The notes below the pieces were generated by a model. The model was not told where the DNA came from. It worked only from the letters and a program-made list of their open reading frames with translations, and made no database searches. From the NCBI RefSeq assembly GCF_000210295.1, contig NC_026740.1:1805691-1869690 (forward strand): 64,000 nucleotides of DNA, in the 5' to 3' direction. Below, piece by piece: positions 14,320-50,277 of this stretch. Source of the stretch: Trypanosoma brucei gambiense DAL972. Taxonomy: Eukaryota > Euglenozoa > Kinetoplastea > Trypanosomatida > Trypanosomatidae. How positions within the stretch are numbered: position 1 is the stretch's first letter; every line of letters begins with the position of its first letter. The translations under genes and the position numbers were made by a program.

Positions 14320-14321
<2 letters not shown>

Positions 14322-20966: not shown

Positions 20967-21169
20967 AAATTTTTCTATTCTAATCAATTTTTAGACATTT
21001 TAAAAGTTTATGATAAAAATGTGAAAATTAGAGAAATTTCGAAAAAGTTGATATAAAAGTAGGCTATGGGTATAAAGTAGTTGTGTGATATAATTTTTAA
21101 AAACAGTGCTATTCTAGTTTGGTCTATTTTGTTTGTTTTTCTGTACATTCATTGGGGTTATACTATTAA

Positions 21170-21335
21170 TGTTTATAATGATAATAATAATGATAGGAGA
21201 ATGTTGTGAGTGTGCATATACAAATATTATAATAAAAGCAGTACTAATAATTATAGTGATAGTAGTAATAATAATGATGATAGGAGAGTGTTGTGAGTGT
21301 GTATATACTGATATAGTAATGACAATAGTGGTTGT
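21170..21335 (+). repeat. 70-bp-type repeats, two units
   Basis: Two copies of the 'atgataggag-a-tgttgtgagtgtg' core with 'tatacaaatattataataaa' between them, about 90 bp apart. Best-preserved repeats of the archive, together with those at 8,225. Confidence 0.8.
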
Positions 21336-28991: not shown

Positions 28992-29830
28992 ATCAGGGCT
29001 GGACTCCCCGTGGTGGCGCGCGAACCCGGTGCACTCACCAGTGTTACAGACCAGAAACTGGTTGTCAATTTACCACTGTGTGAGGGTTTCACCCTTGGTA
29101 TTTGGCGGGCTCCCGCGATCCCATGCCAACTCGCGTGTGCGTTAGCGTCTGCACCGATGAGCTGGGCACCGTCAGTCGTCAGAAGCGTATCTAGGTCAGT
29201 TGCCGTGAAGGTGTGTTTTGGTGGGATGTATGCCGACGTGACAGTCAGCGCCGTTCCACATGTAAGGTGAATTGTTGCATGCACTTGTCCAATGCGACCA
29301 ACAACGGCCATACCGGTCTCGACTGGCTGGTCCTCCCTCACTAGTATTGATACACCACCTCCTTTGCAGTTACGAGCTATTCCGTGATGTTGGTAGCCAG
29401 CAACGCTAAAGCAAGCCGCCTCTCCAGGCGTCATCCTTGTCTCGCTCAACAGACAAAAGGCGATCCGCTCATCAACAAGGGTTTTGTAGAGTGCTAATCT
29501 CTTTCCTTGAGATAGCCCGGCGCAGTTCCACAGCATCCCGCGCAGCGATGGACCGGGATTCTCTTCCACATCACCGGACAGCAGCATCTTAGTGCGGATG
29601 ATACTGCTGATGGCACGCTGGCACGTGCCCAGGGACCGACAAATGAAGAACGGTGTCCCAGCAAGACGCTGCTGATCCCTGTACTGTATGATGCCGTAGC
29701 CGAAGCAAAGCATTGTTCCAAACGAGAGGAGCAATGACGTTCCGTCTGTGCAGAAAGCGAGTTTATGGGCCTTGGGGCCGCGGTGGTGTAGGTGATGTTT
29801 TCGCTGAATGAAAAGGCCCAGCCGGCTCAT
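28988..29830 (-). pseudogene. ingi 2A peptide plus AP-like endonuclease
   Basis: The frame carries the 2A-like sequence (RTKMLLSGDVEENPGP at about 29,551-29,600), which causes ribosome skipping between the final Gly and Pro. It is followed by the endonuclease: NCAGLSQGKR, LLSETRM (catalytic Glu), SAYIPPKH and GADANAHASWHG (catalytic Asp/Asn, His). The C-terminal endonuclease motif is lost: the frame diverges after PRVKPSHSGKL and ends at 28,988, where RT is in another frame. Confidence 0.85.
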
Positions 29831-31764: not shown

Positions 31765-32685
31765 CATATCACCGCGGGCAAATCCTCGCAACACTCCCGC
31801 AGCTCATATAATTCGTCCCCTTCTTGAGTAAGTGGAAACGTGCGGTGCTTTAGGCTTATACAACTCTGTTGCAGATGTTTTTCTGTGCTTCCCCAGCCAC
31901 TGCAATTCCCTTACTCTCCGTGTCAGGAATAACGTCAGTGACGGGATGTTACAAGTCACCGCAAATCGAACCCCAGTCTTCTACACGAAATGTCTACCCG
32001 GCATAATCCCGTTTCCACGTATTGGCACGATGCTCAGTCCAACCGCTTTGCGCATTCAGGCATCAGCGCCACGCAGTTCGCATCATGTCAACCACGTGCA
32101 TTCCTACGCTGTTGGTGAAAGAATGAGCCAGGAATTGAAGCACATGTACATCCATATGCAGGAGAGAGACAGTTTCCTCCTTCCCTCAAACAATACACAC
32201 ACGCCACACTACAGTCTCAAAATCACGTTGGTTATTTAAAAGCACTCACAACACTGTAAAAGGGACAAAAAGTCACTTCAAGCAAAGCATTACTTAGCAT
32301 GCGATTACGTACATATTCATATTGTTGCATGCCCTCCGCCACACGTTGGTACGTTGGAACATGCTAACATCTAACCATCCGTCCGTCCACGCACACACGC
32401 ACACACCGCTATTTAAAGCAGTTTCTATACATCATTCCACTACCCAGATCCCTTATGGAAAAATAGAACGACCACCATGGCACTTTTCCCACAAGCTCAT
32501 CAGGCCCAAAGGAAGAAAATAAACAATCTAAATGATATCAATAATATAATGTAAAAATAAAGCAATAAAAACAACACTAGTGAACACCGACACGACCCTT
32601 CACCACATAAACAGGACCATTACTATTAACACTGTTCTAACAAACTAACCGACCAATAATTGAGCGATAATCACACTATCTACAA
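31765..32685 (+). repeat. Family intergenic repeat, copy B
   Basis: 31,765-32,447 is the inverted partner of 4525-5205. From 32,447 the sequence follows a second 3'-side type (NCACCATGGCACTTTTCCC-like, TAAAGCAATAAAAACAACAC) shared with 36,660-36,915 and, inverted, with 43,620-43,860. It is downstream of the last minus-strand family gene. Confidence 0.8.
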
Positions 32686-32881
32686 ATAGAAAATACATCA
32701 CACGGCTCTACACACTTCCATCGGAATAGAAAATCTAACGCCCTCACCACTCAGCGCCGGGATCCTACGCAAACTGCGTAACCGTGACGAAAAATATTCT
32801 CCGCCGCGCGCACGATCAGAGACCCAACGGCTCCACGGTTACCAAAGCTACTACTGAAACTAGCCGGTATATGGGGGAGAC

Positions 32882-33493
32882 TCAAGGTCTCGGTGATGTT
32901 GCATTACCCCCTCCCACGGCGTCTGCCTCGTCGTCCTCATCTAATATTTCCCAAAAGTGTTCTGAAGTACATTTCTCCTTCTCAGCCTTCTCCGCTTCTC
33001 TCTCGGCATTCCTACTCAACGTCTCGGCTCTGACGGTATACTCATGTGCATCTAGAAAATTATCTTTCAACCCAAAAACGGCCTTCGTGGTGAGCACCGG
33101 TCTCTCGGGTGACTCCCCGCAGAACTTCACAACCTCAGTGAATAACTGACGGACACGCCTTTCACTATTCGACAGCTGCGGCTCAATGTACTTAATCGCC
33201 CTGTAGTACTGGTCCGCCAGCTTCTTTCGCTGTGCATTGACAGCGTCAACCAACTCCTTCTGTTCATTCGACTTCACAATTGCGTCACATCTCTTCTTCA
33301 CAACTTCAGCCCGCTCGGTGGCACGATCAAACCTGTGCCAAACATTAACTAAACGCATGTTTAAGCGACCATACGAAACTTTCAACCCCAGGCAATACCG
33401 CAATCGGCGCGTCGTTGATAGAGCGACGCTCCCCCCCACATTGCACAGAATGGCAATGAAAAGGCACACGATGATTTTCTTCGCTAGATTCAT
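32882..33493 (-). CDS. Secreted family member, divergent (lacks the C-G-F-W motif)
   Basis: 203 aa from the ATG at 33,493; the GTG two codons upstream is not needed. Signal peptide MNLAKKIIVCLFIAILCNVGG, the same as in two other members. The mature body has Cys pairs (YCLGL; VKKRCDAIV; VVKFCGESP) and the AIKYIEPQL segment matching the family's Y-Y-x-A-I-x-Y-I-E-x-Q. The residues after the third Cys read GESPERP and not GFW, and the tail is short (EDDEADAVGGGNATSPRP). No hydrophobic C-terminus. Most divergent member and the last of the minus-strand run. May be a decaying copy or functionally distinct. Confidence 0.75.
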   Translation of the reverse strand: MNLAKKIIVCLFIAILCNVGGSVALSTTRRLRYCLGLKVSYGRLNMRLVNVWHRFDRATERAEVVKKRCDAIVKSNEQKELVDAVNAQRKKLADQYYRAIKYIEPQLSNSERRVRQLFTEVVKFCGESPERPVLTTKAVFGLKDNFLDAHEYTVRAETLSRNAEREAEKAEKEKCTSEHFWEILDEDDEADAVGGGNATSPRP

Positions 33494-33499
33494 TGTCAC

Positions 33500-33905
33500 A
33501 CACTTGTCTCTCCTATGTACCGCATGAAATTAAAAAAGAAAAACAGAATAATATCTTTTGGGCAAGACAACACGAAAAGGGCAATGCAACATATGCAGGA
33601 GAGAGACAGTTTCCTCCTTCCCTCAAACAATAGACACACGCCACACTACAGTCTCACAATCACATTGGTTATTTAAAAGCACTCACAACACTGTAAAAGG
33701 GACAAAAAGTCACTTCAAGCAAAGCATTACTTAGCATGCGATTACGTAGATATTCATATTGTTGCATGCCCTCCGTCACACGTTGGTAGGTTGGAACATG
33801 CTAACATCAACCATCCGTCCGTCCACACACACACGCACACACCGCTATTTAAAGCGGTTTCTATACATCATTCCACTACCCAAATCCCTTATGGAAAAGT
33901 TAGTC
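33500..33905 (+). repeat. Family intergenic repeat, copy C
   Basis: Contains the shared 5'-UTR side (polypyrimidine tract on the minus strand at ~33,522-33,540), 'gagagacagtttcctcc', 'acttagcatgcgattacgt' and the 'ctatttaaagcggt' near-palindrome. It is shorter than copies B and E on its 3'-UTR side; 33,906-34,184 is unique. Confidence 0.8.
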
Positions 33906-34184
33906 CTTCCACTTGATACAACGCACGACGTCTCCTTACGACGCAGTATGTTATGTACAGAAAATAAAATCAAGTAAAGGTGTAGAAAGAGTGACGAAAA
34001 AGTGGCATGGTAAGTTGTTATGTGTCCCGCATCAGTATCATTCGAACAGTCGCTGCCAATACCGCCAAGGATGTGACCAACATGGCACTCAAAATTCCAC
34101 CAAGCACTCGCACGAACCAGTGCCACTGCCGTCCCATACGCTCGCGGTGAATTCCTATCCAGCCTACCCATTACTCGGAACCGA

Positions 34185-34868
34185 TCACTGCGAGGTTACA
34201 TTTTCACCACCAACAGGCGGGGCAGTGTCTTCGGGCGTTTCGGATGCTGCGCTTCCATCGTTGGGCTCCCCACCTTCTTTCTCTGGCTTTTTGTCTCCCT
34301 CTCCGCCCAATGCGTTCTTCGATTCAGCGGAACTGCATTGTGTCGTTCTGGCTTTCACTTCGCTTGTCTCCGCTTCCCTTGACAGCACCTCCATCTTTGA
34401 TACTAAAGATTTGGCCTTCCACAATTTGACTCTAGCTTCACGCTTGAGCTCAGAAGACACTGGCATGAAAGACGACCAGAAGCCGCAATGCTTTCTTATA
34501 CCATTAAGCAACTCGCGCACGTCTTTCTTGTACTCAATTACCTGAGTCTCAATATATCTAATGGCATTGTATTGTTCCACTACTAATTTCACTTTATCCG
34601 AGTTAGCGTTTTCCGTCCCTTCCCTAGTTTCACTTAGTCTAGCAGCCTTCTCACAGGATGTCCTCACAACCTTTGCACGATCCCGGCTACCATGAAGGGC
34701 CTGAAGCAAGGCTGTGCAGCGGTCACTTATTGAATTAATTGATCTTCTCAGTGAATCACAATATCTCTCTCGCACTACCGTATTGCTGAATGCATTACCA
34801 CCCTGCACACTACATAGCATAGAAACGACAAGGCACACGGTGGCACCCCGCGCAAGCCTCATGGCCAT
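34185..34868 (-). CDS. Secreted 4-Cys/C-G-F-W family member with its own leader
   Basis: 227 aa. The signal peptide RLARGATVCLVVSMLCSVQG differs from the shared MNLAKK leader. Family pattern: RERYCDSL, VRTSCEKA, VVEQYNAIRYIETQV, K-H-C-G-F-W-S-S-F-M-P-V, and a fourth Cys in TTQCSSAES. The tail (~185-227) is Glu/Gly/Pro-rich and ends GGENVTSQ, with no GPI or membrane signal. Start: MAMRL gives two candidate Met codons two codons apart. A polypyrimidine tract on the minus strand near 34,900-34,915 fits trans-splicing. Likely co-transcribed with the other minus-strand members. Confidence 0.8.
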   Translation of the reverse strand: MAMRLARGATVCLVVSMLCSVQGGNAFSNTVVRERYCDSLRRSINSISDRCTALLQALHGSRDRAKVVRTSCEKAARLSETREGTENANSDKVKLVVEQYNAIRYIETQVIEYKKDVRELLNGIRKHCGFWSSFMPVSSELKREARVKLWKAKSLVSKMEVLSREAETSEVKARTTQCSSAESKNALGGEGDKKPEKEGGEPNDGSAASETPEDTAPPVGGENVTSQ

Positions 34869-34889
34869 CCTTGAAGACTACTTCCACAA

Positions 34890-35400
34890 ACGAAAGTTAT
34901 AAAAAAAAAAGAAAAACAGAATAATATCTTTTGGGCAGGACAATACGGAAAGCACATGTACATATGCAGGAGAGAGACAGTTTCCTCCTTCCCTCAAACA
35001 ATACACACACGCCACACTACAGTCTCAAAATCACGTTGGTTATTTAAAAGCACTCACAACACTGTAAAAGGGACAAAAAGTCACTTCAAGCAAAGCATTA
35101 CTTAGCATGCGATTACGTAGATATTCATATTGTTGCATGCCCTCCGTCACACGTTGGTAGGTTGGAACATGCTAACATCAACCATCCGTCCGTCCACACA
35201 CACACGCACATACCGCTATTTAAAGCGGTTTCTATACATCATTCCACTACCCAAATCCCTTATGGAAAAATAGAACCCGGAGCACGTCGCCGATCTGTTC
35301 ATATCTTCAATAAAAAGAACAAAAAGTAAACCATATTAATGTTATAAAGCAATAAAGGAAAACCACAGCACGCAGCTGAATAACTTGTTATCGTCTAAGA
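34890..35400 (+). repeat. Family intergenic repeat, copy D
   Basis: Same order of landmarks as copy C, plus the 3'-UTR type seen in copies A and G ('gagcacgtcgccgatctgtt', 'ataaaaagaacaaaaagtaa', 'gcacgcagctgaataacttg'). Confidence 0.8.
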
Positions 35401-35575
35401 GACCATAATTCTGCCACCACTGCCCATCGGGCTGAAAGAACAGATGAGTGTAGCAATACTCTCGGCGGCCACATTAAGAAACAGCCTGTCGCATCCCTTT
35501 AGTATTCAGCGTGCCTTACATTCTCCTCAGCAGCGTAGTTAGCATCCACCCCCATTCCAGTTATCACTTAATGGC

Positions 35576-36283
35576 TCAATTAGCAGATTCAGTGCCCGCA
35601 TGTTCCTCACGGGTCTCGGACGAGGTAGTGGACGTGGCCCTATCGAGCTCACGAGTTCCGACAGTTGGAGTGGTGTCTTGTAGTGAGTCACCGCCACTTT
35701 GCGGCTCCGCTTCACTTCTTGTGACTTCCTCCTGCGTATCTGTAGCTGGCGCGGAGCACCACTCCCCTGAAGCGTGAGAAGCATAAGATTTCGCATTTTC
35801 ACTGAGTGATTCCACCTTCGATATCAATTCTGAAGCCACCTCAAGGTGGCGTTTTGTGATATCACGCAGAAACGAGGATACGGGAGTGAAAGACAACCAG
35901 AAGCCGCAGTGCTTTCCCAAACCGATTAATAAATCGTGAATTTTTTTTTCGTAATCGGATATCTGCCGTTCATTATACATAATAGCGTTGTAGTACTCAT
36001 TCACTAATTTCATTTTATCCGAGTTAGCAGCATCACTCACTTCCTTCTCTTCACTTAACTTAACAAACCTTTCGCAATTTTCTTTAACATTCTCCACCTT
36101 ATGAAGTGCATCCTCAAAAACATTCCAGGTGTCAGTAAACCGCTTCCCCAATTCCTCAACTGTTGCCTTCAACTTTATACAGTATTCCCCTTTTTTTTCA
36201 ACCAGAGAAAAACCACGCACGCCCCCCACATTGCACAGAATGGCAATGAAAAGGCACACGATGATTTTCTTCGCTAGATTCAT
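35576..36283 (-). CDS. Secreted 4-Cys/C-G-F-W family member with shared MNLAKK leader
   Basis: 235 aa from the ATG at 36,283. Leader MNLAKKIIVCLFIAILCNVGG, then a unique body: EYCIKLK, VKENCERF, LVNEYYNAIMYNERQISDY, K-H-C-G-F-W-L-S-F-T-P-V, GEWCSAP. The tail is Ser/Thr/Glu-rich and ends HAGTESAN. No hydrophobic end. Upstream on the minus strand (36,284-36,345) is the 5' UTR shared with two other members: a T/C tract at ~36,318-36,340, then TACATAG with the AG as likely acceptor. Confidence 0.82.
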   Translation of the reverse strand: MNLAKKIIVCLFIAILCNVGGVRGFSLVEKKGEYCIKLKATVEELGKRFTDTWNVFEDALHKVENVKENCERFVKLSEEKEVSDAANSDKMKLVNEYYNAIMYNERQISDYEKKIHDLLIGLGKHCGFWLSFTPVSSFLRDITKRHLEVASELISKVESLSENAKSYASHASGEWCSAPATDTQEEVTRSEAEPQSGGDSLQDTTPTVGTRELDRATSTTSSETREEHAGTESAN

Positions 36284-36299
36284 TGTCACACACTTGTCT

Positions 36300-36950
36300 C
36301 TCCTATGTACCGCATGAAATTAAAAAAGAAAAACAGAATAATATCTTTTGGGCAAGACAATACGAAAAGGGCAATGCAACATATGCAGGAGAGAGACAGT
36401 TTCCTCCTTCCCTCAAACAATAGACACACGCCACACTACAGTCTCAAAATCACATTGGTTATTTAAAAGCACTCACAACACTGTAAAAGGGACAAAAAGT
36501 CACTTCAAGCAAAGCATTACTTAGCATGCGATTACGTAGATATTCATATTGTTGCATGCCCTCCGCCACACGTTGGTACGTTGGAACATGCTAACTCCCT
36601 TATCTCACGGCCGCTCCTCCCCACACACACGCACATACCGCTATTTAAAGCGGTTTCTATACATCATTCAACTACCCAAATCCCTTATAGAAAAATAGAA
36701 CGACCACCATGGCACTTTTCCCACAAGCTCATCAGGCCCAAAGGAAGAAAATAAACAATCTAAATGATAGCAATAATATAATGTAAAAATAAAGCAATAA
36801 AAACAACACTAGTGAACACCGACACGACCCTTCACCACATAAACAGGACCATTACTATTAACACTGTTCTAACAAACTAACCGACCAATAATTGAGCGAT
36901 AATCACACTATCTACGATAAAACAAAAAAGGTATTCTACCCAACAGCTGT
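36300..36950 (+). repeat. Family intergenic repeat, copy E
   Basis: About 580 bp from ~36,375 matches 43,580-44,160 in inverted orientation, including the variant 'ctcccttatctcacggccgc' (36,594-36,614) that other copies lack. This shows E and F are each other's closest relatives. Confidence 0.82.
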
Positions 36951-36983: not shown

Positions 36984-39900
36984 TTATTGCACAGACACAC
37001 CCTCGGCACCTACGGATCCAGCAGCTTCTTTAGGTCCAGCACTTTCCTCAGATCCAGCACTTTCTTTAGGTCCAGCACTTCCCTCAGATCCAGTACTTTC
37101 TTTAGGTCCAGCACTTCCCTCAGATCCAGCACTTTCTTTAGGTCCAGCACTTTCTTTAGGTCCAGCACTTTCTTTAGGTCCAGCACTTTCTTTAGGTCCA
37201 GCACTTCCCTCAGATCCAGCACTTTCTTTAGGTCCAGCACTTTCTTTAGGTCCAGCACTTTCTTTAGGTCCAGCACTTTCTTTAGATCCAGCACTTTCTT
37301 CAGGTCCAGCACTTTCTTTAGGTCCAGCACTTTCTTTAGGTCCAGCACTTTCTTTAGGTCCAGCACTTTCTTTAGGTCCAGCACTTTCTTTAGGTCCAGC
37401 ACTTTCTTTAGGTCCAGCACTTTCTTTGGGTCCAGCACTTTCTTTAGATCCAGCACTTTCTTTAGGTCCAGCACTTTCTTTAGGTCCAGCACTTCCCTCA
37501 GATCCAGCAGTTTCTTTGGGTCCAGCACTTTCCTCAGATCCAGCACTTTCTTTAGGTCCAGCACTTTCCTCAGATCCAGCACTTTCCTCAGATCCAGCAC
37601 TTTCTTTGGGTCCAGCACTTTCTTTAGGTCCAGCACTTTCTTTAGGTCCAGCACTTTCCTCAGATCCAGCACTTTCTTTAGGTCCAGCACTTTCTTTAGG
37701 TCCAGCACTTTCTTTAGGTCCAGCACTTTCTTTAGGTCCAGCACTTTCTTTGGGTCCAGCACTTTCTTTGGGTCCAGCACTTTCTTTAGGTCCAGCACTT
37801 TCTTTGGGTCCAGCACTTTCTTTGGGTCCAGCACTTTCTTTAGGTCCAGCACTTTCTTTAGGTCCAGCACTTCCCTCAGATCCAGCACTTTCTTTGGGTC
37901 CAGCACCTTCTTTAGGATCAGCAGTTTCTTTAGGTCCAGCACTTCCCTCAGATCCAGCACTTTCCTCAGATCCAGCACTTTCTTTAGGTCCAGCACTTTC
38001 TTTGGGTCCAGCACTTTCCTCAGATCCAGCAGTTTCTTTGGGTCCAGCACTTTCTTTAGGTCCAGCACTTTCTTTAGGTCCAGCACTTTCTTTAGGTCCA
38101 GCACTTTCTTTGGATCCAGCACTTTCTTTGGGTCCAGCACTTTCTTTGGGTCCAGCACTTTCTTTGGGTCCAGCACTTTCTTTAGGTCCAGCACTTTCTT
38201 TGGGTCCAGCACTTTCCTCAGATCCAGCACTTTCTTTAGGTCCAGCAGCTTCTTTAGGTCCAGCACTTCCCCCAGATCCAGCAGTTTCTTTGGGTCCAGC
38301 AGTTTCTTTGGGTCCAGCAGTTTCTTTGGGTCCAGCACTTTCCTCAGATCCAGCACTTCCCTCAGATCCAGCAGTTTCTTTGGGTCCAGCAGTTTCTTTA
38401 GGTCCAGCAGTTTCTTTGGGTCCAGCACTTTCTTTGGGTCCAGCACTTTCTTTAGGTCCAGCACTTTCTTTAGGTCCAGCGCTTTCTTTGGGTCCAGCAC
38501 TTTCTTTGGGTCCAGCACTTTCTTTAGGTCCAGCACTTTCTTTAGGTTCAACACTTTCCTCAGATCCAGCACTTCCCTCAGATCCAGCACTTTCTTTAGG
38601 TTCAGCACTTTCTTTAGGTCCAGCACTTTCTTTGGGTCCAGCACTTTCTTTGGGTCCAGCACTTTCTTTAGATCCAGCACTTTCTTTAGGTTCAGCACTT
38701 TCCTCAGATCCAGCACTTCCCTCAGATCCAGCACTTTCTTTAGATCCAGCACTTTCTTTAGGTTCAGCACTTTCTTTAGATCCAGCACTTCCCTCAGATC
38801 CAGCACTTTCTTTAGGTCCAGCACTTTCTTTGGGTCCAGCACTTTCTTTGGGTCCAGCACTTTCTTTGGATCCAGCGCTTTCTTTAGGTCCAGCACTTTC
38901 TTTGGGTCCAGCACTTTCTTTGGGTCCAGCACTTTCTTTAGGTCCAGCAGTTTCTTTGGGTCCAGCACTTCCTTCAGATCCAGCAGTTTCTTTGGGTCCA
39001 GCAGTTTCTTTGGGTCCAGCACTTTCTTTAGATCCAGCACTTTCTTTAGGTCCAGCACTTTCTTTGGGTCCAGCACTTTCTTTAGGTCCAGCAGTTTCTT
39101 TGGGTCCAGCACTTTCCTCAGGTCCAGCAGTTTCTTTGGGTCCAGCACTTTCCTCAGATCCAGCACTTTCTTTGGGTCCAGCACTTCCCTCAGATCCAGC
39201 ACTTTCTTTAGGTCCAGCACTTTCCTCAGATCCAGCACTTTCTTTAGGTCCAGCACTTTCCTTAGATCCAGCACCTTCTTTAGGTCCAGCACTTTCTTTA
39301 GGTCCAGCACTTTCTTTAGGTCCAGCAGTTTCTTTGGGTCCAGCACTTTCCTCAGATCCAGCACTTTCCTCAGATCCAGCAGTTTCTTCAGATCCAGCAG
39401 TTTCTTTAGGTCCAGCACTTTCTTTAGATCCAGCACTTTCTTTAGGTTCAGCACTTTCTTTAGGTCCAGCACTTTCTTCAGATCCAGCACTTTCTTTAGG
39501 TCCAGCACTTTCTTTAGGTCCAGCGCTTTCTTTAGGTCCAGCAGTTTCTTTAGGTCCAGCAGTTTCTTTAGATCCAGCACTTTCTTTAGGTCCAGCACTT
39601 TCTTTAGGTCCAGCAGTTTTTTTGGGTCCAGCAGTTTCTTTAGGTCCAGCAGTTTCTTTAGGTCCAGCACTTTCCTCAGATCCAGCACTTTCTTTGGGTC
39701 CAGCACTTCCCCCAGGTCCAGCACTTTCTTTGGGTCCAGCAGTTTCTTTGGGTCCAGCAGTTTCTTTAGGTCCAGCAGTTTCTTTGGGTCCAGCAGTTTC
39801 TTTAGGTCCAGCACTTTCCTCAGATCCAGCACTTTCTTTGGGTCCAGCACTTTCTTTAGGTCCAGCACTTTCTTTAGGTCCAGCAGTTTCTTTGGGTCCG

Positions 39901-40213
39901 GCACTTCCTTTAGGTCCAGCACTTTCTTTGGGTCCGGCACTTTCTTTAGGTCCAGCAGTTTCTTTGGGTCCAGCACTTCCTTTAGGTCCAGCACTTTCTT
40001 TGGGTCCGGCACTTTCCTCACATCCAGCACTTTCTTTGGGTCCAGCAGCTTCCTTGGTGGTGACCGTTTCTTTTGGCGACTGGGATGTCGCACCACTGCT
40101 TTTGGGTTCCTCTTGTTTTTTCTTTGCCTTTTCTTCCTCCTCCCCCGCCAATACATTCTCTGTCCCCACCAAGACGCATCTGTTTCTTACGGCGGTATCG
40201 CTGTGATTTTTTG
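36984..40213 (-). CDS. Secreted family member with giant hexapeptide-repeat tail (C-terminal part, split by a gap)
   Basis: Minus-strand frame open from the gap edge at 40,213 to the stop at 36,984. It begins VRNRCVLVGTENVLAGEEEE, then a Lys/Glu-rich linker, then about 168 copies of a six-residue unit (GPKESA, with GPKETA, GSEESA, GSEGSA and GSKESA variants), ending AAGSVGAEGVSVQ. The N-terminal part of the same gene is at 48,060-48,825: the 225 bases 39,989-40,213 are identical to 48,111-48,335. Joined, the gene would encode about 1,240 residues: leader, 4-Cys helical domain, then an extended hydrophilic repeat. No C-terminal anchor. The repeat has no stop in this frame over ~3 kb, which argues for selection on this frame, although two other frames are also open by arithmetic of the unit. 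Confidence 0.8.
37010..40060. repeat. 18-bp tandem repeat tract 1 (~168 units)
   Basis: Unit on the minus strand: GGACCTAAAGAAAGTGCT, with variation at the Pro/Ser codon (ACC/TCT), Lys/Glu codon (AAA/GAG), and Ser/Thr codon (AGT/ACT). Unit length stays at multiples of 3 throughout. Variants are interspersed, not blocked. Confidence 0.95.
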
Positions 40214-40313
40214 NNNNNNNNNNNNNNNNNNNNNNNNNNNNNNNNNNNNNNNNNNNNNNNNNNNNNNNNNNNNNNNNNNNNNNNNNNNNNNNNNNNNNNN
40301 NNNNNNNNNNNNN
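40214..40313. other. Assembly gap, 100 N
   Basis: Exactly 100 N, the conventional unknown-size gap. The flanks are the middle of a minus-strand gene (left) and the middle of a plus-strand gene (right), so this join cannot reflect a normal gene. Confidence 0.98.
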
Positions 40314-43300
40314 ACGAAATGTCCTCCGAAAAAGAGGTCAATAGGGACAAACAAAACAAAAAATAGCAGTCCAACTTCCTTAGAGTCGCCCAAAACGCAA
40401 GGTACCCCCGTCAGGCCTGGGGGTCTTGTCGACCCTAAAGAAAGTGCTGGATCTAAAGAAAGTGCTGAACCTAAAGAAAGTGCTGGATCTGAGGGAAGTG
40501 CTGGACCTAAAGGAAGTGCCGGACCCAAAGAAAGTGCTGGACCTAAAGAAAGTGCTGGATCTAAAGAAACTGCTGGACCCAAAGAAACTGCTGGACCCAA
40601 AGAAACTGCTGGACCCAAAGAAACTGCTGGATCTGAGGGAAGTGCTGGACCCAAAGAAACTTCTGGACCCAAAGAAGCTGCCGGACCCAAAGAAAGTGCT
40701 GGACCCAAAGAAACTGCTGGACCCAAAGAAACTGCTGGATCTAAAGAAACTGCTGGATCCAAAGAAACTGCTGGACCCAAAGAAAGTGCTGGACCCAAAG
40801 AAACTGCTGGACCTAAAGTAAGTGCTGGATCTAAAGAAACTGCTGGACCCAAAGAAACTGCTGGACCCAAAGAAACTGCTGGACCCAAAGAAACTGCTGG
40901 ACCCAAAGAAACTGCTGGATCTGAGGGAAGTGCTGGACCCAAAGAAACTTCTGGATCTGAGGGAAGTGCTGAACCTAAAGAAAGTGCTGGACCTAAAGAA
41001 GCTGCTGGACCCAAAGAAAGTGCTGGACCCAAAGAAACTGCTGGACCTAAAGAAAGTGCTGGATCTAAAGAAACTGCTGGACCCAAAGAAACTGCTGGAC
41101 CCAAAGAAACTGCTGGACCCAAAGAAACTGCTGGACCTAAAGAAAGTGCTGGACCTAAAGAAAGTGCTGGACCTAAAGAAAGTGCTGGATCTAAAGAAAC
41201 TGCTGGACCCAAAGAAAGTGCTGGACCCAAAGAAAGTGCTGGACCCAAAGAAAGTGCTGGACCTAAAGAAAGTGCTGGACCTAAAGAAAGTGCTGGACCC
41301 AAAGAAAGTGCTGGACCCAAAGAAACTGCTGGACCTAAAGAAAGTGCTGGACCCAAAGAAAGTGCTGGACCTAAAGAAAGTGCTGGACCTAAAGAAAGTG
41401 CTGGACCCAAAGAAACTGCTGGACCCAAAGAAAGTGCTGGACCCAAAGAAACTGCTGGATCTGAGGAAAGTGCTGGACCTAAAGAAACTGCTGGACCTAA
41501 AGAAAGTGCTGGATCTAAAGAAAGTGCTGGACCTAAAGAAAGTGCTGGACCTAAAGAAAGTGCTGGACCTAAAGAAAGTGCTGGACCCAAAGAAAGTGCT
41601 GGACCCAAAGAAAGTGCTGGACCTAAAGAAAGTGCTGGACCTAAAGAAAGTGCTGGACCTAAAGAAAGTGCTGGACCTAAAGAAAGTGCTGGATCTAAAG
41701 AAAGTGCTGGATCTAAAGAAAGTGCTGGACCTAAAGAAAGTGCTGGACCTAAAGAAAGTGCTGGACCTAAAGAAAGTGCTGGATCTAAAGAAAGTGCTGG
41801 ACCTAAAGAAAGTGCTGGACCTAAAGAAAGTGCTGGATCTGAAGGAAAGTGCTGGACCTAAAGAAAGTGCTGGACCTAAAGAAAGTGCTGGATCTGAGGA
41901 AAGTGCTGGACCTAAAGAAAGTGCTGGATCTGAGGAAAGTGCTGGACCTAAAGAAAGTGCTGGACCTAAAGAAAGTGCTGGACCTAAAGAAAGTGCTGAC
42001 CTAAAGAAAGTGCTGGATCTAAAGAAAGTGCTGGACCTAAAGAAAGTGCTGGATCTGAGGAAAGTGCTGGATCTAAAGAAACTGCTGGACCTAAGGAAAG
42101 TGCTGGATCTAAAGAAAGTGCTGGACCTAAAGAAAGTGCTGGATCTGAAGAAAGTGCTGGATCTAAAGAAAGTGCTGGACCTAAAGAAAGTGCTGGACCT
42201 AAGGAAAGTGCTGGACCTAAAGAAAGTGCTGGACCTAAAGAAAGTGCTGGACCTAAAGAAAGTGCTGCTGGATCTAAAGAAAGTGCTGGATCTAAAGAAA
42301 GTGCTGGACCTAAAGAAAGTGCTGGATCTAAAGAAAGTGCTGGATCTAAAGAAAGTGCTGGACCTAAAGAAAGTGCTGGACCTAAAGAAAGTGCTGGACC
42401 TAAAGAAAGTGCTGGACCCAAAGAAAGTGCTGGACCTAAAGAAAGTGCTGGACCTAAAGAAAGTGCTGGATCTAAAGAAAGTGCTGGACCTAAAGAAAGT
42501 GCTGGACCTAAAGAAAGTGCTGGACCTAAAGAAAGTGCTGGACCCAAAGAAAGTGCTGGACCCAAAGAAAGTGCTGGACCTAAAGAAAGTGCTGGACCTA
42601 AAGAAAGTGCTGGATCTAAAGAAAGTGCTGGACCTAAAGAAAGTGCTGGACCTAAAGAAAGTGCTGGACCTAAAGAAAGTGCTGGACCCAAAGAAAGTGC
42701 TGGACCTAAAGAAAGTGCTGGACCTAAAGAAAGTGCTGGACCTAAAGAAACTGCTGGACCCAAAGAAAGTGCTGGACCCAAAGAAAGTGCTGGATCTAAA
42801 GAAAGTGCTGGACCTAAAGAAACTGCTGGATCTAAAGAAAGTGCTGGACCTAAAGAAACTGCTGGATCTAAAGAAAGTGCTGGACCTAAAGAAAGTGCTG
42901 GACCTAAAGAAAGTGCTGGACCTAAAGAAACTGCTGGACCTAAAGAAAGTGCTGGATCTAAAGAAAGTGCTGGACCTAAAGAAAGTGCTGGACCTAAAGA
43001 AACTGCTGGACCTAAAGAAAGTGCTGGACCTAAAGAAAGTGCTGGATCTAAAGAAAGTGCTGGACCCAAAGAAACTGCTGGACCCAAAGAAAGTGCTGGA
43101 CCCAAAGAAACTGCTGGACCTAAAGAAAGTGCTGGACCTAAAGAAACTGCTGGACCCAAAGAAACTGCTGGACCCAAAGAAAGTGCTGGACCCAAAGAAA
43201 CTGCTGGACCTAAAGAAAGTGCTGGACCCAAAGAAACTGCTGGACCTAAAGAAAGTGCTGGATCTAAAGAAAGTGCTGAACCTAAAGAAACTGCTGGACC

Positions 43301-43448
43301 TAAGGAAAGTGCTGGACCTAAAGAAACTGCTGGACCTAAAGAAAGTGCTGGACCTAAAGAAAGTGCTGGACCTAAAGAAAGTGCTGGACCTAAAGAAAGT
43401 GCTGGATCTGAAGAAAGTGCTGGACCTAAAGAAACTGCTGGATCCTAA
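40314..43448 (+). pseudogene. Plus-strand family member, repeat tail only, N-terminus missing at the gap
   Basis: Starts at the equivalent of residue ~180 of the gene at 44,211: the first ~120 bases match 44,752-44,870, including RPGGLVDPKESAGSKE. One extra G near 40,345 (AATAGGGAC versus AATAGGAC) would put the upstream frame into a stop. Then about 167 hexapeptide units follow. An inserted base at ~41,838 (GAAGGAAAGTGCT) and a missing base at ~41,998 (GTGCTGACC) compensate each other, so the GPKESA frame is off for ~160 bp only. Stop at 43,446-43,448 (ETAGS). It is either a pseudogene or an intact gene with contig-edge and repeat-region sequencing errors. Confidence 0.65.
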
Positions 43449-43579
43449 GAAAATGCTGGAACCTAAGAAAATGCTGGGACCTAAGAAAATGCTGGACCCC
43501 AAGAAAATGCTGGAACTTAAGAAAATGCTGGATCCGTTGGTCCGGGGGGGGGTCTGGGCCTTAAGGAGTGGGGCCTGAT

Positions 43580-44160
43580 GTGCTTATAGTGATCCAACAG
43601 CTGTTGGGTAGAATACCTTTTTGTTTTTTCGTAGATAGTGTGATTATCGCTCAATTATTGGTCGGTTAGTTGTTAGGAACAGTGTTAATAGTAATGGTCC
43701 TGTTTATGTGGTGAAGGGTCGTGTCGGTGTTCACTAGTGTTGTTTTTATTGCTTTATTTTTACATTATATTATTGATATCATTTAGATTGTTTATTTTCT
43801 TCCTTTGGGCCTGATGAGCTTGTGGGAAAAGTGCCATGGTGGTCGTTCTATTTTTCTATATGGGATTTGGGTAGTGGAATGATGTATAGAAACCGCTTTA
43901 AATAGCGGTATGTGCGTGTGTGTGGGGAGGAGCGGCCGTGAGATAAGGGAGTTAGCATGTTCCAACGTACCAACGTGTGACGGAGGGCATGCAACAATAT
44001 GAATATCTACGTAACCGCATGCTAAGTAATGCTTTGCTTGAAGTGACTTTTTGTCCCTTTTACAGTGTTGTGAGTGCTTTTAAATAACCAATGTGATTTT
44101 GAGACTGTAGTGTGGCGTGTGTGTATTGTTTGAGGGAAGGAGGAAACTGTCTCTCCTGCA
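43580..44160 (-). repeat. Family intergenic repeat, copy F (inverted)
   Basis: Reverse complement of copy E (36,375-36,948) with few changes. It lies between the two plus-strand repeat-tail genes. Also contains the 'taaagcaataaaaacaacac' 3'-UTR block of copy B. Confidence 0.85.
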
Positions 44161-44210
44161 TGTGCATGTGCTATTTTTTTTTTGTTTTTGTGTTGTTGTC
44201 GTTGAAGAAA

Positions 44211-46472
44211 ATGCATGTTCTGTGGTGTATTGTGCTATTTTTTGTGGTGCATACATCATATGTTGTTGATGCCAGCAGTTTTTTTAATAGATGGGAGAGC
44301 AGAGCGAGATATTGTGCAAGAATGAAGCGTCTTTTATTTGATATTTATAATCGTTTGGAGCAGGCAAAACGTGACGTCAAGCGTTCACTTGTAAATGTTA
44401 GGGAGGAGGTTGTTAACTGTAGGATACTTGACACCAGTGGTAGGAGTACTTTTGCATGGGAGCGAATAAAGATACTTGATGGGTACAATGATGCCATCCT
44501 TCTTATAAAACGCAAGGTTGATGATCACGAAAAGAAGGTACATGAATTGGTTGGCAACATTAAAAAAGAATGTGGCTTTTGGGTGTCTTTCACGCCATTA
44601 TCTGATGAGGTACACCGGTATACAACTACCAATTTGTTACAGGTCAAATTTCTTACGGCAAAAATTGAGGCTCTTAGTTTTGATGCCAGGTATTACGGGG
44701 AAAATCTCAAAGAGGGAATATGCACTTTCCTTGATCCTGGCACAGAAACCGACGAAATGTCCACCGAAAAAGAGGTCAATAGGACAAACAAAACAAAAAA
44801 TAGCAGTCCAACTTCCTTAGAGTCGCCCAAAACGCAAGGTACCCCCGTCAGGCCTGGGGGTCTTGTCGACCCTAAAGAAAGTGCTGGATCTAAAGAAAGT
44901 GCTGAACCTAAAGAAAGTGCTGGATCTGAGGGAAGTGCTGGACCTAAAGGAAGTGCCGGACCCAAAGAAAGTGCTGGACCTAAAGAAAGTGCTGGATCTA
45001 AAGAAACTGCTGGACCCAAAGAAACTGCTGGACCCAAAGAAACTGCTGGATCTGAAGAAAGTGCTGGACCCAAAGAAACTTCTGGACCCAAAGAAACTGC
45101 CGGACCCAAAGAAAGTGCTGGACCCAAAGAAACTGCTGGACCCAAAGAAACTGCTGGATCTAAAGAAACTGCTGGATCCAAAGAAACTGCTGGACCCAAA
45201 GAAAGTGCTGGACCCAAAGAAACTGCTGGACCTAAAGAAAGTGCTGGATCTAAAGAAACTGCTGGACCTAAAGAAACTGCTGGACCCAAAGAAACTGCTG
45301 GACCTAAGGAAAGTGCTGGACCTAAAGAAAGTGCTGGACCTAAAGAAACTGCTGGATCTGAAGAAAGTGCTGAACCTAAAGAAAGTGCTGGATCTAAAGA
45401 AAGTGCTGGACCTAAAGAAAGTGCTGGACCTAAAGAAAGTGCTGGACCTAAAGAAAGTGCTGGACCCAAAGAAAGTGCTGGACCTAAAGAAACTGCTGGA
45501 CCTAAAGAAAGTGCTGGACCTAAAGAAAGTGCTGGACCTAAAGAAAGTGCTGGACCTAAAGAAACTGCCGGACCCAAAGAAACTGCTGGACCTAAAGAAA
45601 GTGCTGGACCTAAAGAAAGTGCTGGACCTAAAGAAAGTGCTGGACCTAAAGAAACTGCTGGACCCAAAGAAACTGCTGGACCCAAAGAAACTGCTGGACC
45701 CAAAGAAAGTGCTGGACCTAAAGAAACTGCTGGACCTAAAGAAACTGCTGGACCCAAAGAAACTGCTGGACCTAAAGAAACTGCTGGACCCAAAGAAACT
45801 GCTGGACCTAAAGAAAGTGCTGGACCTAAAGAAAGTGCTGGACCTAAAGAAAGTGCTGGACCTAAAGAAACTGCTGGACCTAAAGAAACTGCCGGACCCA
45901 AAGAAACTGCTGGACCTAAAGAAAGTGCTGGACCTAAAGAAAGTGCTGGACCTAAAGAAGCTGCTGGACCTAAAGAAACTGCTGGACCCAAAGAAACTGC
46001 TGGATCTAAAGAAAGTGCTGGACCCAAAGAAAGTTCTGGACCTAAAGAAAGTGCTGGATCTAAAGAAAGTGCTGAACCTAAAGAAACTGCTGGATCTAAG
46101 GAAAGTGCTGGACCTAAAGAAACTGCTGGACCTAAAGAAAGTGCTGGACCTAAAGAAAGTGCTGGACCTAAAGAAAGTGCTGGATCTGAGGAAAGTGCTG
46201 GACCTAAAGAAAGTGCTGGACCTAAAGAAAGTGCTGGACCTAAAGAAAGTGCTGGACCTAAAGAAAGTGCTGGATCTGAGGAAAGTGCTGGACCCAAAGA
46301 AAGTGCTGGACCTAAAGAAAGTGCTGGACCTAAAGAAAGTGCTGGATCTGAGGAAAGTGCTGGACCTAAAGAAAGTGCTGAACCTAAAGAAAGTGCTGGA
46401 TCTGAGGGAAGTACTGGATCTAAAGAAAGTGCTGAACCTAAAGAAACTGCTGGATCTGAGGGAAAGTGCTGA
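44211..46472 (+). CDS. Secreted 4-Cys/C-G-F-W family member with long hexapeptide-repeat tail
   Basis: 753 aa from the ATG at 44,211, chosen because the preceding T/C tract (44,172-44,200) and AG at 44,205-44,206 form a splice acceptor; the longer frame from 44,112 starts inside the tract. Leader MHVLWCIVLFFVVHTSYVVD, then RARYCARMK, VVNCRILD, ILDGYNDAILLIKRKV, K-E-C-G-F-W-V-S-F-T-P-L, EGICTFLDP. A linker (NSSPTSLESPKTQGTPVRPG) leads to ~88 hexapeptide units. The frame ends at GSEGKC-stop, caused by one extra base in a hybrid unit GAGGGAAAGTGCT. Repeat coding resumes out of frame to 46,653 and again to 46,756, ending AEPKE-stop, so the ancestral tail had ~105 units. No anchor signal. Confidence 0.8.
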   Translation: MHVLWCIVLFFVVHTSYVVDASSFFNRWESRARYCARMKRLLFDIYNRLEQAKRDVKRSLVNVREEVVNCRILDTSGRSTFAWERIKILDGYNDAILLIKRKVDDHEKKVHELVGNIKKECGFWVSFTPLSDEVHRYTTTNLLQVKFLTAKIEALSFDARYYGENLKEGICTFLDPGTETDEMSTEKEVNRTNKTKNSSPTSLESPKTQGTPVRPGGLVDPKESAGSKESAEPKESAGSEGSAGPKGSAGPKESAGPKESAGSKETAGPKETAGPKETAGSEESAGPKETSGPKETAGPKESAGPKETAGPKETAGSKETAGSKETAGPKESAGPKETAGPKESAGSKETAGPKETAGPKETAGPKESAGPKESAGPKETAGSEESAEPKESAGSKESAGPKESAGPKESAGPKESAGPKESAGPKETAGPKESAGPKESAGPKESAGPKETAGPKETAGPKESAGPKESAGPKESAGPKETAGPKETAGPKETAGPKESAGPKETAGPKETAGPKETAGPKETAGPKETAGPKESAGPKESAGPKESAGPKETAGPKETAGPKETAGPKESAGPKESAGPKEAAGPKETAGPKETAGSKESAGPKESSGPKESAGSKESAEPKETAGSKESAGPKETAGPKESAGPKESAGPKESAGSEESAGPKESAGPKESAGPKESAGPKESAGSEESAGPKESAGPKESAGPKESAGSEESAGPKESAEPKESAGSEGSTGSKESAEPKETAGSEGKC

Positions 46473-46756
46473 ACCTAAAGAAACTGCTGGATCTGAGGGA
46501 AGTGCTGGATCTAAAGAAAGTGCTGAACCTAAAGAAAGTGCTGGACCTAAAGAAAGTGCTGAACCTAAAGAAGGTGCTGGATCTGAGGAAAGTGCTGGAC
46601 CTAAAGAAAGTGCTGAACCTAAAGAAACTGCTGGATGTGAGGGAAAGTGCTGAACCTAAAGAAACTGCTGGATCTGAGGGAAGTGCTGGATCTAAAGAAA
46701 GTGCTGAACCTAAAGAAAGTGCTGGACCTAAAGAAAGTGCTGAACCTAAAGAGTAA
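46473..46756 (+). pseudogene. Out-of-frame continuation of the repeat tail
   Basis: Sixteen or so further hexapeptide units after the frameshift at ~46,460, with an identical second insertion at ~46,640. The final unit reads GAACCTAAAGAGTAATAG, i.e. a proper Glu then double stop. Confidence 0.75.
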
Positions 46757-47680
46757 TAGGGTTAGAGAGGGAGATGGAGTAACCAATGGTTTAAAAACAA
46801 GAAAGAGAAGTTTAGTGGAGAAGATATAGTAAAAGAGAAGCATATTTCCCCTATTATATTCATGACAACATCAGAGTGTTATGCTCCTCAGTTGGATTTG
46901 CTTATGAACTCAGATCACAAGGAGCATGTGCAGAGATGTTACTGGTTTTTCAATGTGGGCTACAGAAAAGAAGAGGATAAAAAATTACCCCATTTACTAA
47001 AATCACCTCCTAGTGGAAAACCCTATCTTAGTGGTGGTGATGGATTAATAGCCAGAGTATGGGCTTTCACAAAATTTGAATATGCTTTTGGAGAGTTACT
47101 AAAGGGAAGTGATGAAAAGTGGTAAGAACAGAGTATTTACAAACATTTACTAATTTGGAGTGTTACAAAGGAATGAACTGTTGGACAGAGATTTGTTTTG
47201 AAGAGATGAATGGTTGGATTGAATTATGAAGAGAGAGATTTTTTTACTATTCCGTATAGTGGTAAAGTTGGAGAGGCGCCATTCATTCATTTTCCTGGAC
47301 AGCCTATTGCTTGGGAAGAGAAAGCGAAATTGATTGTGAGAAAACTTAGTTGATATAAAGAATTGGAAAGTAAGCGATTCAGTATGGCTTTTTTGAAAAC
47401 TTCAAACTTATTTTATACGTGGAGGTCAAAGGAAGTTTGAACACTGGGAAATTTGTAGAGATACGTTTACAGAAGGTGACTTGTTTAGAGAAGAAAAGTG
47501 GTAAGTCATAGGCTTTCTTCAAACAGTTGTACCTTCAAAGCAGTTGTTAAAGTATCGGTGTAATATTAGTAAAATGAATATTAAACGACTCTGTTTCTTA
47601 AAGTTGACCTGCCTCGAATACCAATTTTATAAAAAGAAACATCTGATACCTGCAAGCAGCACTTTTCTACAAGCAAGACC
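46757..47680 (+). other. Unrecognised AT-rich block with gene-remnant texture
   Basis: An 87-codon frame at 46,862-47,125 (RCYWFFNVGYRKEEDKKLPH, ending LLKGSDEKW) and further short open pieces, e.g. around 47,240-47,350 (AWEEKAKLIVRKLS), look like a decayed gene. I do not recognise the family. It lies between a family member and a VSG start. No 70-bp-type repeat is visible here, unlike the main VSG archive. Confidence 0.35.
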
Positions 47681-47959
47681 ATGAAAATGGAAAGGCAACA
47701 CACAACGCTCGGTACTCAGCTGCTTTGCTTTTTTTACGTCGTCCTGCAAGGCGTAGTCGGAGCGAATGTTGAACAAGGGGACAACGGCGGCTACTACGCT
47801 AGTACGTGTGCAATACTGAACATGTTGCTCGGAGCAAACGAGCAATCGGATAACAGCGCCGAAGTACGAAAAATAGCAGCGGAGATTGGGGCAATAAATC
47901 TTTCTGTGGCGGATGAAGCTTTCAGAAAACTTATAAAGCACGATGTTGACTGGAATGGC
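47681..47959 (+). CDS. VSG: VSG N-terminus, truncated by the assembly gap
   Basis: ATG at 47,681; signal peptide with LLCFFYVVLQGVVGA; mature start NVEQGDNGGYYASTCAILNM. The early single Cys followed by LLGANEQ fits B-type VSG N-terminal domains. 93 residues remain open to the gap; whether the gene is intact cannot be told. It shows that the 40,314-47,959 contig runs from the secreted family into VSG DNA. Confidence 0.75.
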
Positions 47960-48059
47960 NNNNNNNNNNNNNNNNNNNNNNNNNNNNNNNNNNNNNNNNN
48001 NNNNNNNNNNNNNNNNNNNNNNNNNNNNNNNNNNNNNNNNNNNNNNNNNNNNNNNNNNN
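47960..48059. other. Assembly gap, 100 N
   Basis: Second 100-N block. Left flank is a plus-strand VSG, right flank is the interior of a minus-strand repeat-tail gene. The first ~50 bases after it show missing bases (TTTGGTCAG for TTTAGGTCCAG), typical of a contig edge. Confidence 0.98.
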
Positions 48060-48825
48060 CGGCCCTTTCTTTGGTCAGCAGTTTCTTTGGGTCCAGCACT
48101 TCCTTTGGTCCAGCACTTTCTTTGGGTCCGGCACTTTCCTCACATCCAGCACTTTCTTTGGGTCCAGCAGCTTCCTTGGTGGTGACCGTTTCTTTTGGCG
48201 ACTGGGATGTCGCACCACTGCTTTTGGGTTCCTCTTGTTTTTTCTTTGCCTTTTCTTCCTCCTCCCCCGCCAATACATTCTCTGTCCCCACCAAGACGCA
48301 TCTGTTTCTTACGGCGGTATCGCTGTGATTTTTTGCACCAAGACTGAGTTTGTCTATCATCATCGTTAGGGATCTTGCTTCTAACAGTTTTTCTTTAACA
48401 GTTCTTTTGAATGACGATGTGAGTGGCATGAAAGACAACCAGAAGCCGCAGCCGTTCCATATTTCACCAGTCAAAGTATTGATCTTCCTTTCGCAATCAC
48501 CGATGAGCAGTTCAATTTGCCTAATGGCACTGTAGCTCTCGTCTACTAACTTAAGTTTTTCTGAGTTGATGGCGCCAGAAACGTCCTTGGCTTTCTTATG
48601 CTTCAAAATACCTTCGCATTCTGCTTTTACGGCTAGCGTGTTATTGAACGCACGGTCGAATACGTTCCATGACTCTGAAAATCGGTTGTTAACTTTGTTA
48701 ATAACACTTTTTACCTTTTTACAATGAGCTGCTCTGCTTTCCCGCCTCTCGAAACCACGCACGCCTCCCACATTGCACAGAATGGCAATGAAAAGGCACA
48801 CGATGATTTTCTTCGCTAGATTCAT
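48060..48825 (-). CDS. N-terminal part of the giant repeat-tail family member
   Basis: From the ATG at 48,825: leader MNLAKKIIVCLFIAILCNVGG, then body AHCKKVK, VKAECEGIL, LVDESYSAIRQIELLI, N-G-C-G-F-W-L-S-F-M-P-L, VRNRCVLVGT, then the Lys/Glu linker and the first hexapeptide units before the gap. Bases 48,111-48,335 equal 39,989-40,213, so this is the missing start of the 36,984-40,213 gene. The last ~50 bases before the gap are frame-disturbed by apparent contig-edge errors. Same 5' UTR as the members at 33,493 and 36,283. Confidence 0.85.
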
Positions 48826-48839
48826 TGTCACACACTTGT

Positions 48840-49431
48840 CTCTCCTATGTACCGCATGAAATTAAAAAAGAAAAACAGAATAATATCTTTTGGGCAAGAC
48901 AATACGGAAAGCACATGTACATATGCAGGAGAGAGACAGTTTCCTCCTTCCCTCAAACAATACACACACGCCACACTACAGTCTCAAAATCACATTGGTT
49001 ATTTAAAAGCACTCACAACACTGTAAAAGGGACAAAAAGTCACTTCAAGCAAAGCATTACTTAGCATGCGATTACGTAGATATTCATATTGTTGCATGCC
49101 CTCCGTCACACGTTGGTAGGTTGGAACATGCTAACATCAACCATCCGTCCGTCCCCACACACACGCACATACCGCTATTTAAAGCGGTTTCTATACATCA
49201 TTCCACTACCCAAATGCCCCATGCTTATCCGGAAGCCAGAGCACGTCGCCGATCTGTTCATATCTTCAATAAAAAGAACAAAAAGTAAAGCATATTAATG
49301 TTATAAAGCAATAAAGGAAAACCACAGCACGCAGCTGAATAACTTGTTATCATCGAAGCAGCATCTCAACCTACGTAGCCTTGAGCAAGACGAAGCATCA
49401 TCTTCCATCGTCGTGTTCCCAATCAAATAAA
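48840..49431 (+). repeat. Family intergenic repeat, copy G
   Basis: Closest partner of copy A (4312-5205, inverted): both continue past 'ccactacccaaatg' into 'ccccatgcttatccggaag' and the same 3' UTR to 'cgacgaagcatcatcttccatcg'-type sequence. Lies 3' of the 49,471-50,277 gene. Confidence 0.85.
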
Positions 49432-49470
49432 AACCGTTGACTCCTTCTTACATTCAACTTGTCTCATGCT

Positions 49471-50277
49471 CTAATCCACCTCCGCCTGGGCCTCCTTCCC
49501 TACCGCAGGTTCAGCAACAACAGCAGGTTCCTCGTCGGCGGTTTTTTCCCCAAGACCTTCTTGGCTGCTATCGGTGTCACCTTCAGCGGTGTCAGTCGAC
49601 CTGTTTTCTTCTCTCTGCTCATCCATACTTCTGGGTGATTCAGGAGATGCGGGCACGGGGCCATCGGATGTTTCCTCGTTCTGTTTGCCGGAAGTGTCTT
49701 CACCAGCACCTGCCTCCTTCTCTCTGCGATTATCCTCCACCGTGGAGCACTCATCATTCGCCGCATCAGCGGCATAGCTCGCCGCATCTCCACTAAGGGT
49801 TTCAATTTTCGACACCTTGCCTGTAGCTTCAGCCGTCGTCTCCTCAATGCTCCGTTTGAATGAATTGGTTACTGGCATGAAGGACAACCAAAACCCGCAT
49901 CGGTCCTTTAGATACACCGTTAGTTTGTGTAAATCGCGCTCGTAGTTCCTAATCTCTGTTCCGACATACATGATCGCGTTGTAGTACTCATCTACAACTC
50001 TCTTCTTTCCGCTGTCTGCAACATCTGTTATCTCATCGTCGCTGACTTTCTTCACGTCCTCGTCGCACTTTCCCTTGACGACACTGGTTCGCTTGAGAGC
50101 AACTTCAAACGTGTGCCATGCGTTTGCATAGCGGTTATTAATGGCCCGAACTGATTTGGCCACTGTAGTACAGTATTCTGAGCGGCTTACCCTTCCCCAA
50201 TGAGAAGAGGACTTGCCTCCAATACTGCATAGCCCGGCCACGAGAATATATAGTGTTACGCCCCTTGCGAAAACCAT
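49471..50277 (-). CDS. Secreted 4-Cys/C-G-F-W family member, first of the minus-strand run
   Basis: 268 aa from the ATG at 50,277 (an upstream TTG is unnecessary). Leader MVFARGVTLYILVAGLCSIGG. Body: SEYCTTVAK, VKGKCDEDV, VVDEYYNAIMYVGTEIRNY, D-R-C-G-F-W-L-S-F-M-P-V, ANDECSTVED. The tail of ~95 residues is acidic and Ser/Gly/Asp-rich, ending GKEAQAEVD. No GPI or membrane signal. Its 3' flank is the inverted twin of the flank of the gene at 3376-4170, although the two proteins differ. It is the family member nearest the core genes. Confidence 0.82.
   Translation of the reverse strand: MVFARGVTLYILVAGLCSIGGKSSSHWGRVSRSEYCTTVAKSVRAINNRYANAWHTFEVALKRTSVVKGKCDEDVKKVSDDEITDVADSGKKRVVDEYYNAIMYVGTEIRNYERDLHKLTVYLKDRCGFWLSFMPVTNSFKRSIEETTAEATGKVSKIETLSGDAASYAADAANDECSTVEDNRREKEAGAGEDTSGKQNEETSDGPVPASPESPRSMDEQREENRSTDTAEGDTDSSQEGLGEKTADEEPAVVAEPAVGKEAQAEVD

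Follow-up and report, generated by a model that had tools for sequence, protein, structure and literature searches.

Giant tracts of a hexapeptide-coding repeat in a Fam10/SGM1/ESP17 gene cluster of Trypanosoma brucei gambiense DAL972

ESP17, one of the Fam10 proteins of Trypanosoma brucei, has been localized in bloodstream cells to the surface of the cell body and to a compartment provisionally taken for the lysosome (PMC4587319). Fam10 transcripts are highest in metacyclics, where the member SGM1.7 (Tb927.7.6600) is found on the cell surface (PMC7007551). The family's chromosome 7 cluster has been counted as six genes (PMC7007551) or seven (PMC4587319), with five of seven members detected in the latter study. 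SGM1.7 was tried as a transmission-blocking antigen, and vaccination with it reduced early parasitaemia (PMC7007551). The family is described as having neither a transmembrane segment nor a glycosylphosphatidylinositol (GPI) site, and the same paper raises the question of what retains these proteins on the cell (PMC10089363). Here we analysed a stretch of T. b. gambiense DAL972 (the 64-kb window, positions 1805691-1869690 of contig 7; all coordinates below are those of the window) that contains three giant tracts of an 18-base repeat encoding GPKESA-type hexapeptides, among genes whose N-terminal "heads" place them, by homology, in this family, whose proteins occur at the surface of metacyclic and bloodstream cells. 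As in the published members, the heads are homologous, carry a signal peptide and are followed by no obvious anchor; unlike them, two of the heads lead into giant hexapeptide tails, which the Fam10 texts available to us do not mention (the word "repeat" is absent from the main text of PMC7007551).

Other trypanosome surface proteins offer partial parallels. MISP (Fam50) proteins share a three-helix head (top VIA match), metacyclic surface location and a repeat-bearing disordered C-terminal tail, but their 26-residue repeats number only one to three and a GPI site is predicted for them (PMC10089363). ISG43, ISG64, ISG65 and ISG75 likewise have a three-helix head and a disordered C-terminal linker, which in their case ends in a transmembrane domain (PMC11065263), and the long three-helix bundle of the receptors HpHbR, GARP, MISP, FHR and ISG65 is predicted for two of the heads studied here. 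In T. cruzi, the SAPA repeats form a C-terminal hydrophilic tandem repeat on a shed trans-sialidase; they are immunodominant, prolong the stability of the enzyme in blood, activate B cells in a T-independent manner and absorb most of the antibody response (PMC12575306). The likeness is one of working principle and not of membership: a folded N-terminal domain is followed by a hydrophilic C-terminal tandem repeat in both, whereas the SAPA unit has 12 residues and an unrelated sequence, sits on an enzyme head and is usually repeated far fewer times (65 in one copy cited). The unit here has 6 residues, and neither of the two assembled genes with both head and repeats has a trans-sialidase Pfam match.

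The family assignment follows from a short-tailed gene (35576-36283, minus strand), whose product is identical to T. equiperdum ESP17 at 234 of 235 residues, and from the homology of the other heads to it. A genome search (11 contigs, 22,148,088 bases) recovered seven heads, all matching one another and all within the window on contig 7, which we take to be chromosome 7; since the search covered placed contigs, seven is a lower bound. Two of these heads lead into the repeat. The first belongs to a minus-strand gene starting at 48825 (hereafter gene 48825; head at 48289-48825) and matches ESP17 at 47%, its protein search returning ESP17 and the window's own product of the gene at 32882. The second belongs to the tract 3 gene (head and linker at 44211-44867, plus strand; the open reading frame is listed from 44160, with the second Met at 44211 as the likely start) and gave no match at E <= 0.01 among proteins 0.55-1.75 times its length. 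Numbered next to SGM1.7, Tb927.7.6580 and Tb927.7.6590 are reported to be lumenal flagellar pocket proteins (PMC9981465); their Fam10 membership is only putative, and the former has also been called a CAMK group kinase (PMC2771046).

An AlphaFold2 model of the gene 48825 head (mean predicted local distance difference test score, pLDDT, 86.7) contains three helices (residues 31-79, 85-125 and 137-173), in agreement with the helical head of about 180 residues proposed in the initial annotation of this DNA. The model of the tract 3 head is similar (helices 31-75, 82-121 and 132-167), with a signal peptide preceding the predicted bundle. For both predicted heads the top structural match was MISP360, and the modelled fold appears to resemble MISP360 and ISG65. 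At the sequence level, a phmmer search of PDB with the head listed nothing but CSF-1, and that weakly (E of 0.048 or higher); MISP360 was not listed up to E 1.

The three tracts themselves are confirmed. Tandem Repeats Finder (TRF) reported a period-18 array of 168.4 copies at 37017-40047 and another of 346.4 copies at 40434-46752, the latter merging two tracts, and wrap-around alignment resolved 168, 167 and 101 full 18-base units in tract 1 (37017-40076, minus strand, GPKESA type), tract 2 (40434-43532, plus strand) and tract 3 (44871-46752, plus strand, spanning 105 units), respectively. Array length and score rule out a chance origin. The consensus unit, GGACCTAAAGAAAGTGCT, encodes GPKESA, and a 23-base pattern from the repeat had at least 100 exact genome copies listed, all of which fall inside the window. 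Across 430 full units (the last six full units of tract 2 excluded) there were 41 distinct unit sequences, with departures from the consensus chiefly at unit positions 4 (Pro/Ser, 101), 6 (silent, 118), 7 and 9 (Lys/Glu, 55 and 54), 11 (Glu/Gly, 26 of 27) and 14 (Ser/Thr, 109). Both the existence of three large tracts and the concentration of change at Pro/Ser, Lys/Glu and Ser/Thr positions are thus as first annotated.

The same annotation had placed each tract at the 3' end of a headed gene, which the assembly bears out for tract 3, where the head is present. At a gap of 100 Ns (40214-40313), tract 1 on the minus strand and tract 2 on the plus strand each lose the 5' end, and neither has a head at that place. 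Gene 48825 (48060-48825, minus strand: head, linker and first repeat units) in turn runs into a second 100-N gap (47960-48059), ending there with about six units of the same array. Its contig end overlaps that of tract 1 by 276 bases, of which 229, counted from the tract 1 edge, match exactly, the few differences being crowded at the gene 48825 edge. Given this 229-base exact match to the start of its tail, gene 48825 is probably the owner of tract 1, although a recent duplicate would be an alternative to one shared gene. For tract 2, the head is not assembled; its 5' end resembles that of tract 3 (ahead of the array the two differ by a single substitution and a single-base difference, and from there on they are nearly identical), so that the missing head was probably tract 3-like.

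The tail encoded by these tracts consists almost wholly of Gly, Pro, Lys, Glu, Ser and Ala with some Thr, with a net charge of -58, -21 and -26 in the three cases. In the tract 3 model no secondary structure is present past residue 167; the low confidence of that part (block pLDDT 34-57) is weak evidence of disorder, given that repeats lack alignment depth. Together with the composition, this agrees with the very long, charged and apparently extended chain that had been described; denatured-chain scaling gives a coil of about 20-30 nm end to end. A role as glycosylation scaffold was also suggested then; for N-glycosylation it finds no support, the repeats of tracts 1 and 3 being free of N-X-S/T sequons. 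Nor did simple hydropathy, as opposed to a dedicated GPI predictor, pick out a hydrophobic C-terminal stretch in any of the six chains with an in-frame C-terminus (17-residue maximum never above 0.94 past residue 30). A protein search with the tract 1 tail (7990 candidates scored) returned just two matches, one of them short and the other to a brittle-star protein (44% over 42%); we read both as low-complexity resemblance. Within the open-access literature, as distinct from closed-access papers, we found no description of the hexapeptide repeat, and the string "GPKESA" occurred in the open texts only in a review of NLRP3 inhibitors. Heads and family are already known; it is the giant repeat tail that was not found described.

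It is tempting to speculate on what such a tail does, and we tentatively favour, as the leading account but short of a probable one, a soluble bulk tail or antibody decoy on an unanchored, receptor-like Fam10 head. The layout indicated by sequence or model is a signal peptide, a four-cysteine three-helix head and a predicted disordered, mildly acidic chain of about 600-1,000 residues with no end anchor. From the missing anchor onward we infer the steps: the protein would exit via the flagellar pocket and then either stay in the lumen of the pocket or, by way of its head or a partner, associate with the coat. The anchorless ESAG7 has an anchored partner, ESAG6 (PMC3605285), and a partner of this kind would explain surface retention. 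The tail would contribute hydrodynamic bulk, slowing loss, and would display one repeated motif that diverts antibodies from the head, for which the SAPA repeats may serve as a precedent by analogy. Its length would shift by whole 18-base units gained or lost, such that the frame is kept. The polymer XTEN is composed of G, A, S, T, E and P; a more daring version, which we regard as a long shot, holds that the Fam10 tail is a natural XTEN-like polymer with K added, whose bulk traps a receptor-like protein that has no anchor, in the lumen of the flagellar pocket or in the coat, and whose unit number tunes retention and antibody load between strains.

Two points weigh against the decoy account. 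First, Tb927.7.6600 is listed as "Predicted GPI" in PMC11732084, which would give at least this member an anchor. Second, the open frame is weak evidence. The initial annotation held that unit length, and with it the hexapeptide frame, is preserved for kilobases; this stands for tract 1 and fails for tracts 2 and 3. The 168 full units of tract 1 are free of length changes (its two alignment gaps fall on the non-repeat edge), and this is the only tract open to a stop outside the array: as assembled, the frame runs from the gap edge in the head's frame for 1075 residues (36987-40211, minus strand), ending in ...GSVGAEGVSVQ just beyond the repeats. Tract 2, in contrast, contains two single-base length changes 152 bases apart and one in-frame triplet, and its 3' end is disordered and low-quality-looking, with in-frame stops, while the assembled frame of tract 3 ends at 46472 within the array after a single-base length change, with a second such change downstream. 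Even in tract 1, preservation of the frame over kilobases comes mostly from copying unit by unit. The longest ATG-initiated open reading frame over this tract (37010-40156, minus strand) does not read the GPKESA protein at all: a naive caller chooses a DLKKVL frame instead, so local gene models may use the wrong frame.

How many such genes exist, and how long their tails are, depends on the assembly, and it is quite possible, if somewhat doubtful, that there are fewer than three repeat genes or that tract lengths are wrong, a view compatible with any of the others. Capillary reads of plasmid inserts (1.4-4 kb) and BACs (bacterial artificial chromosomes) covered DAL972 about eight-fold and were assembled into 281 contigs totalling 22.1 Mb, ordered on strain 927, and the genome paper itself warns that assembled repeat copy numbers "can be arbitrary" (PMC2854126); the unit counts given here are thus estimates. 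Capillary reads at this depth would be too short for kilobases of an 18-base repeat, and the contigs were placed on another strain's order. The two gaps bound a 7.6-kb plus-strand piece within a run of minus-strand family genes, so that a gap lies exactly where the strand changes, at 40.2 kb. On the simplest view, tract 1 belongs to gene 48825, as their shared contig ends suggest, and the plus-strand piece either has its place elsewhere or is reversed. Tracts 1 and 2 also have a common 3' flank, in which 12 of the 33 differences (over 640 columns) fall within the first 70 bases, a crowding that looks like poor base calls. Against distortion on this scale, the unit order of tract 1 differs from that of tracts 2 and 3 (alignment scores of 62.5 vs. 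a shuffle mean of 72.6, and 39.6 vs. 39.3), which argues against tract 1 being a second reading of the tract 2 or tract 3 array. Downstream of tract 3, the plus-strand flank (46756-47959) is unlike the tract 1 and 2 flanks and holds a VSG_B N-terminal piece truncated by the second gap.

The main rival to the decoy account is neutral expansion, in which an 18-base unit slipped or was exchanged in a recombining array beside variant surface glycoprotein (VSG) genes, leaving a functionless tail that is tolerated, being soluble and of a unit length divisible by three. We consider it rather unlikely, but it accounts for the sequence nearly as well as the best explanation. Distinct changes from the consensus number 13 non-synonymous, 5 silent and 0 stop, out of 39, 12 and 3 possible, which is about the neutral expectation: purifying selection on the hexapeptide is not seen, nor is any non-synonymous excess. 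Just 3 of the 54 single changes to the consensus make a stop, and four of the six frames of the tract 1 array lack stops, so that openness requires no selection. Two of the three tracts are frame-broken as assembled. Neighbouring units are also more often alike than in shuffled arrays: of 500 shuffles, 2 reached the lag-1 value of tract 1, none that of tract 2 and 5 that of tract 3. The lags above most of the 500 shuffles were 1, 4 and 8 in tract 1, many in tract 2, and 1, 5 and 6 in tract 3. A higher-order repeat with one larger unit did not stand out, with the longest unit runs shared within a tract at or below the shuffle maximum. Tracts 2 and 3 align in unit order (83.7, against a maximum of 60.5 in 60 shuffles), mostly through their first 24 units. 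This pattern is what gain and loss of units through slippage or unequal exchange would leave, and with such turnover length differences between related copies would be expected. Less easily accommodated by neutrality are the 168 full units of tract 1 without a length change, in frame to an outside stop, and a composition that is hydrophilic all along.

That the tail is a stalk or spacer, as was also proposed initially, seems improbable. It would raise the head over the VSG coat, much as MISP and ISG heads are reported to protrude by virtue of disordered C-terminal tails (PMC11065263, PMC10089363), and both the apparent fold resemblance of the predicted heads to MISP360 and ISG65 and the "Predicted GPI" listing noted above speak for it. 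A stalk, however, requires an anchor at the far end, which is absent from all six in-frame C-termini, in line with the anchorless state described for Fam10, and a coil of 600-1,000 residues would much exceed what the thickness of the coat calls for. A VSG or transposon origin of the genes has no Pfam support: the VSG N-terminal domains (Trypan_glycop, VSG_B) gave no match on six family members, while neighbouring open reading frames match strongly.

Should tails five times the size of the head be made, the antibody response may target the tail, and protein sizes expected on blots and in proteomics would be wrong. Diagnosis could then make use of a long, repetitive antigen that is confined to the T. 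brucei group. Short- and long-tailed siblings in one array would also provide a natural comparison for the function of disordered tails.

The remaining family members are short-tailed. On the minus strand they lie at 32882-33493 (short tail), 34185-34868 (short charged tail) and 49471-50277 (short acidic tail); one with a very acidic tail at 3376-4170 is on the plus strand, inverted relative to the minus-strand members. Mature heads are only 22.3-38.3% identical (21 pairs), with four cysteines kept, vs. 92-98% for the signal-peptide start of three members and the intergenic flanks (3376-4170, 32138-36700, 43552-44172 and 48752-49476), which hints at homogenised or young flanks beside old or fast-evolving, diversifying heads. 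The two heads that carry repeat tails are 28.2% identical to each other, and the head tree neither shows nor rejects them as one clade (approximately unbiased test, p-AU 0.418), the single branch in which the initial annotation had the repeat arise. Between the C-terminal ends of tract 1 and the gene at 34185, the protein match (best of five comparisons) was equalled in 3 of 500 shuffles, which hints at a common C-terminal end; their DNA matched no better than shuffles.

Elsewhere in the window, a VSG island with A-type and B-type genes, some of them incomplete, occupies 9921-23857 (plus strand) and includes a (TAA)16 run at 14322-14369. Two retroelement segments (6620-7748 and 28608-29730) are 97.6% identical over 1,129 bases, the second lying inside an element with endonuclease-like, reverse transcriptase and RNase H open reading frames.
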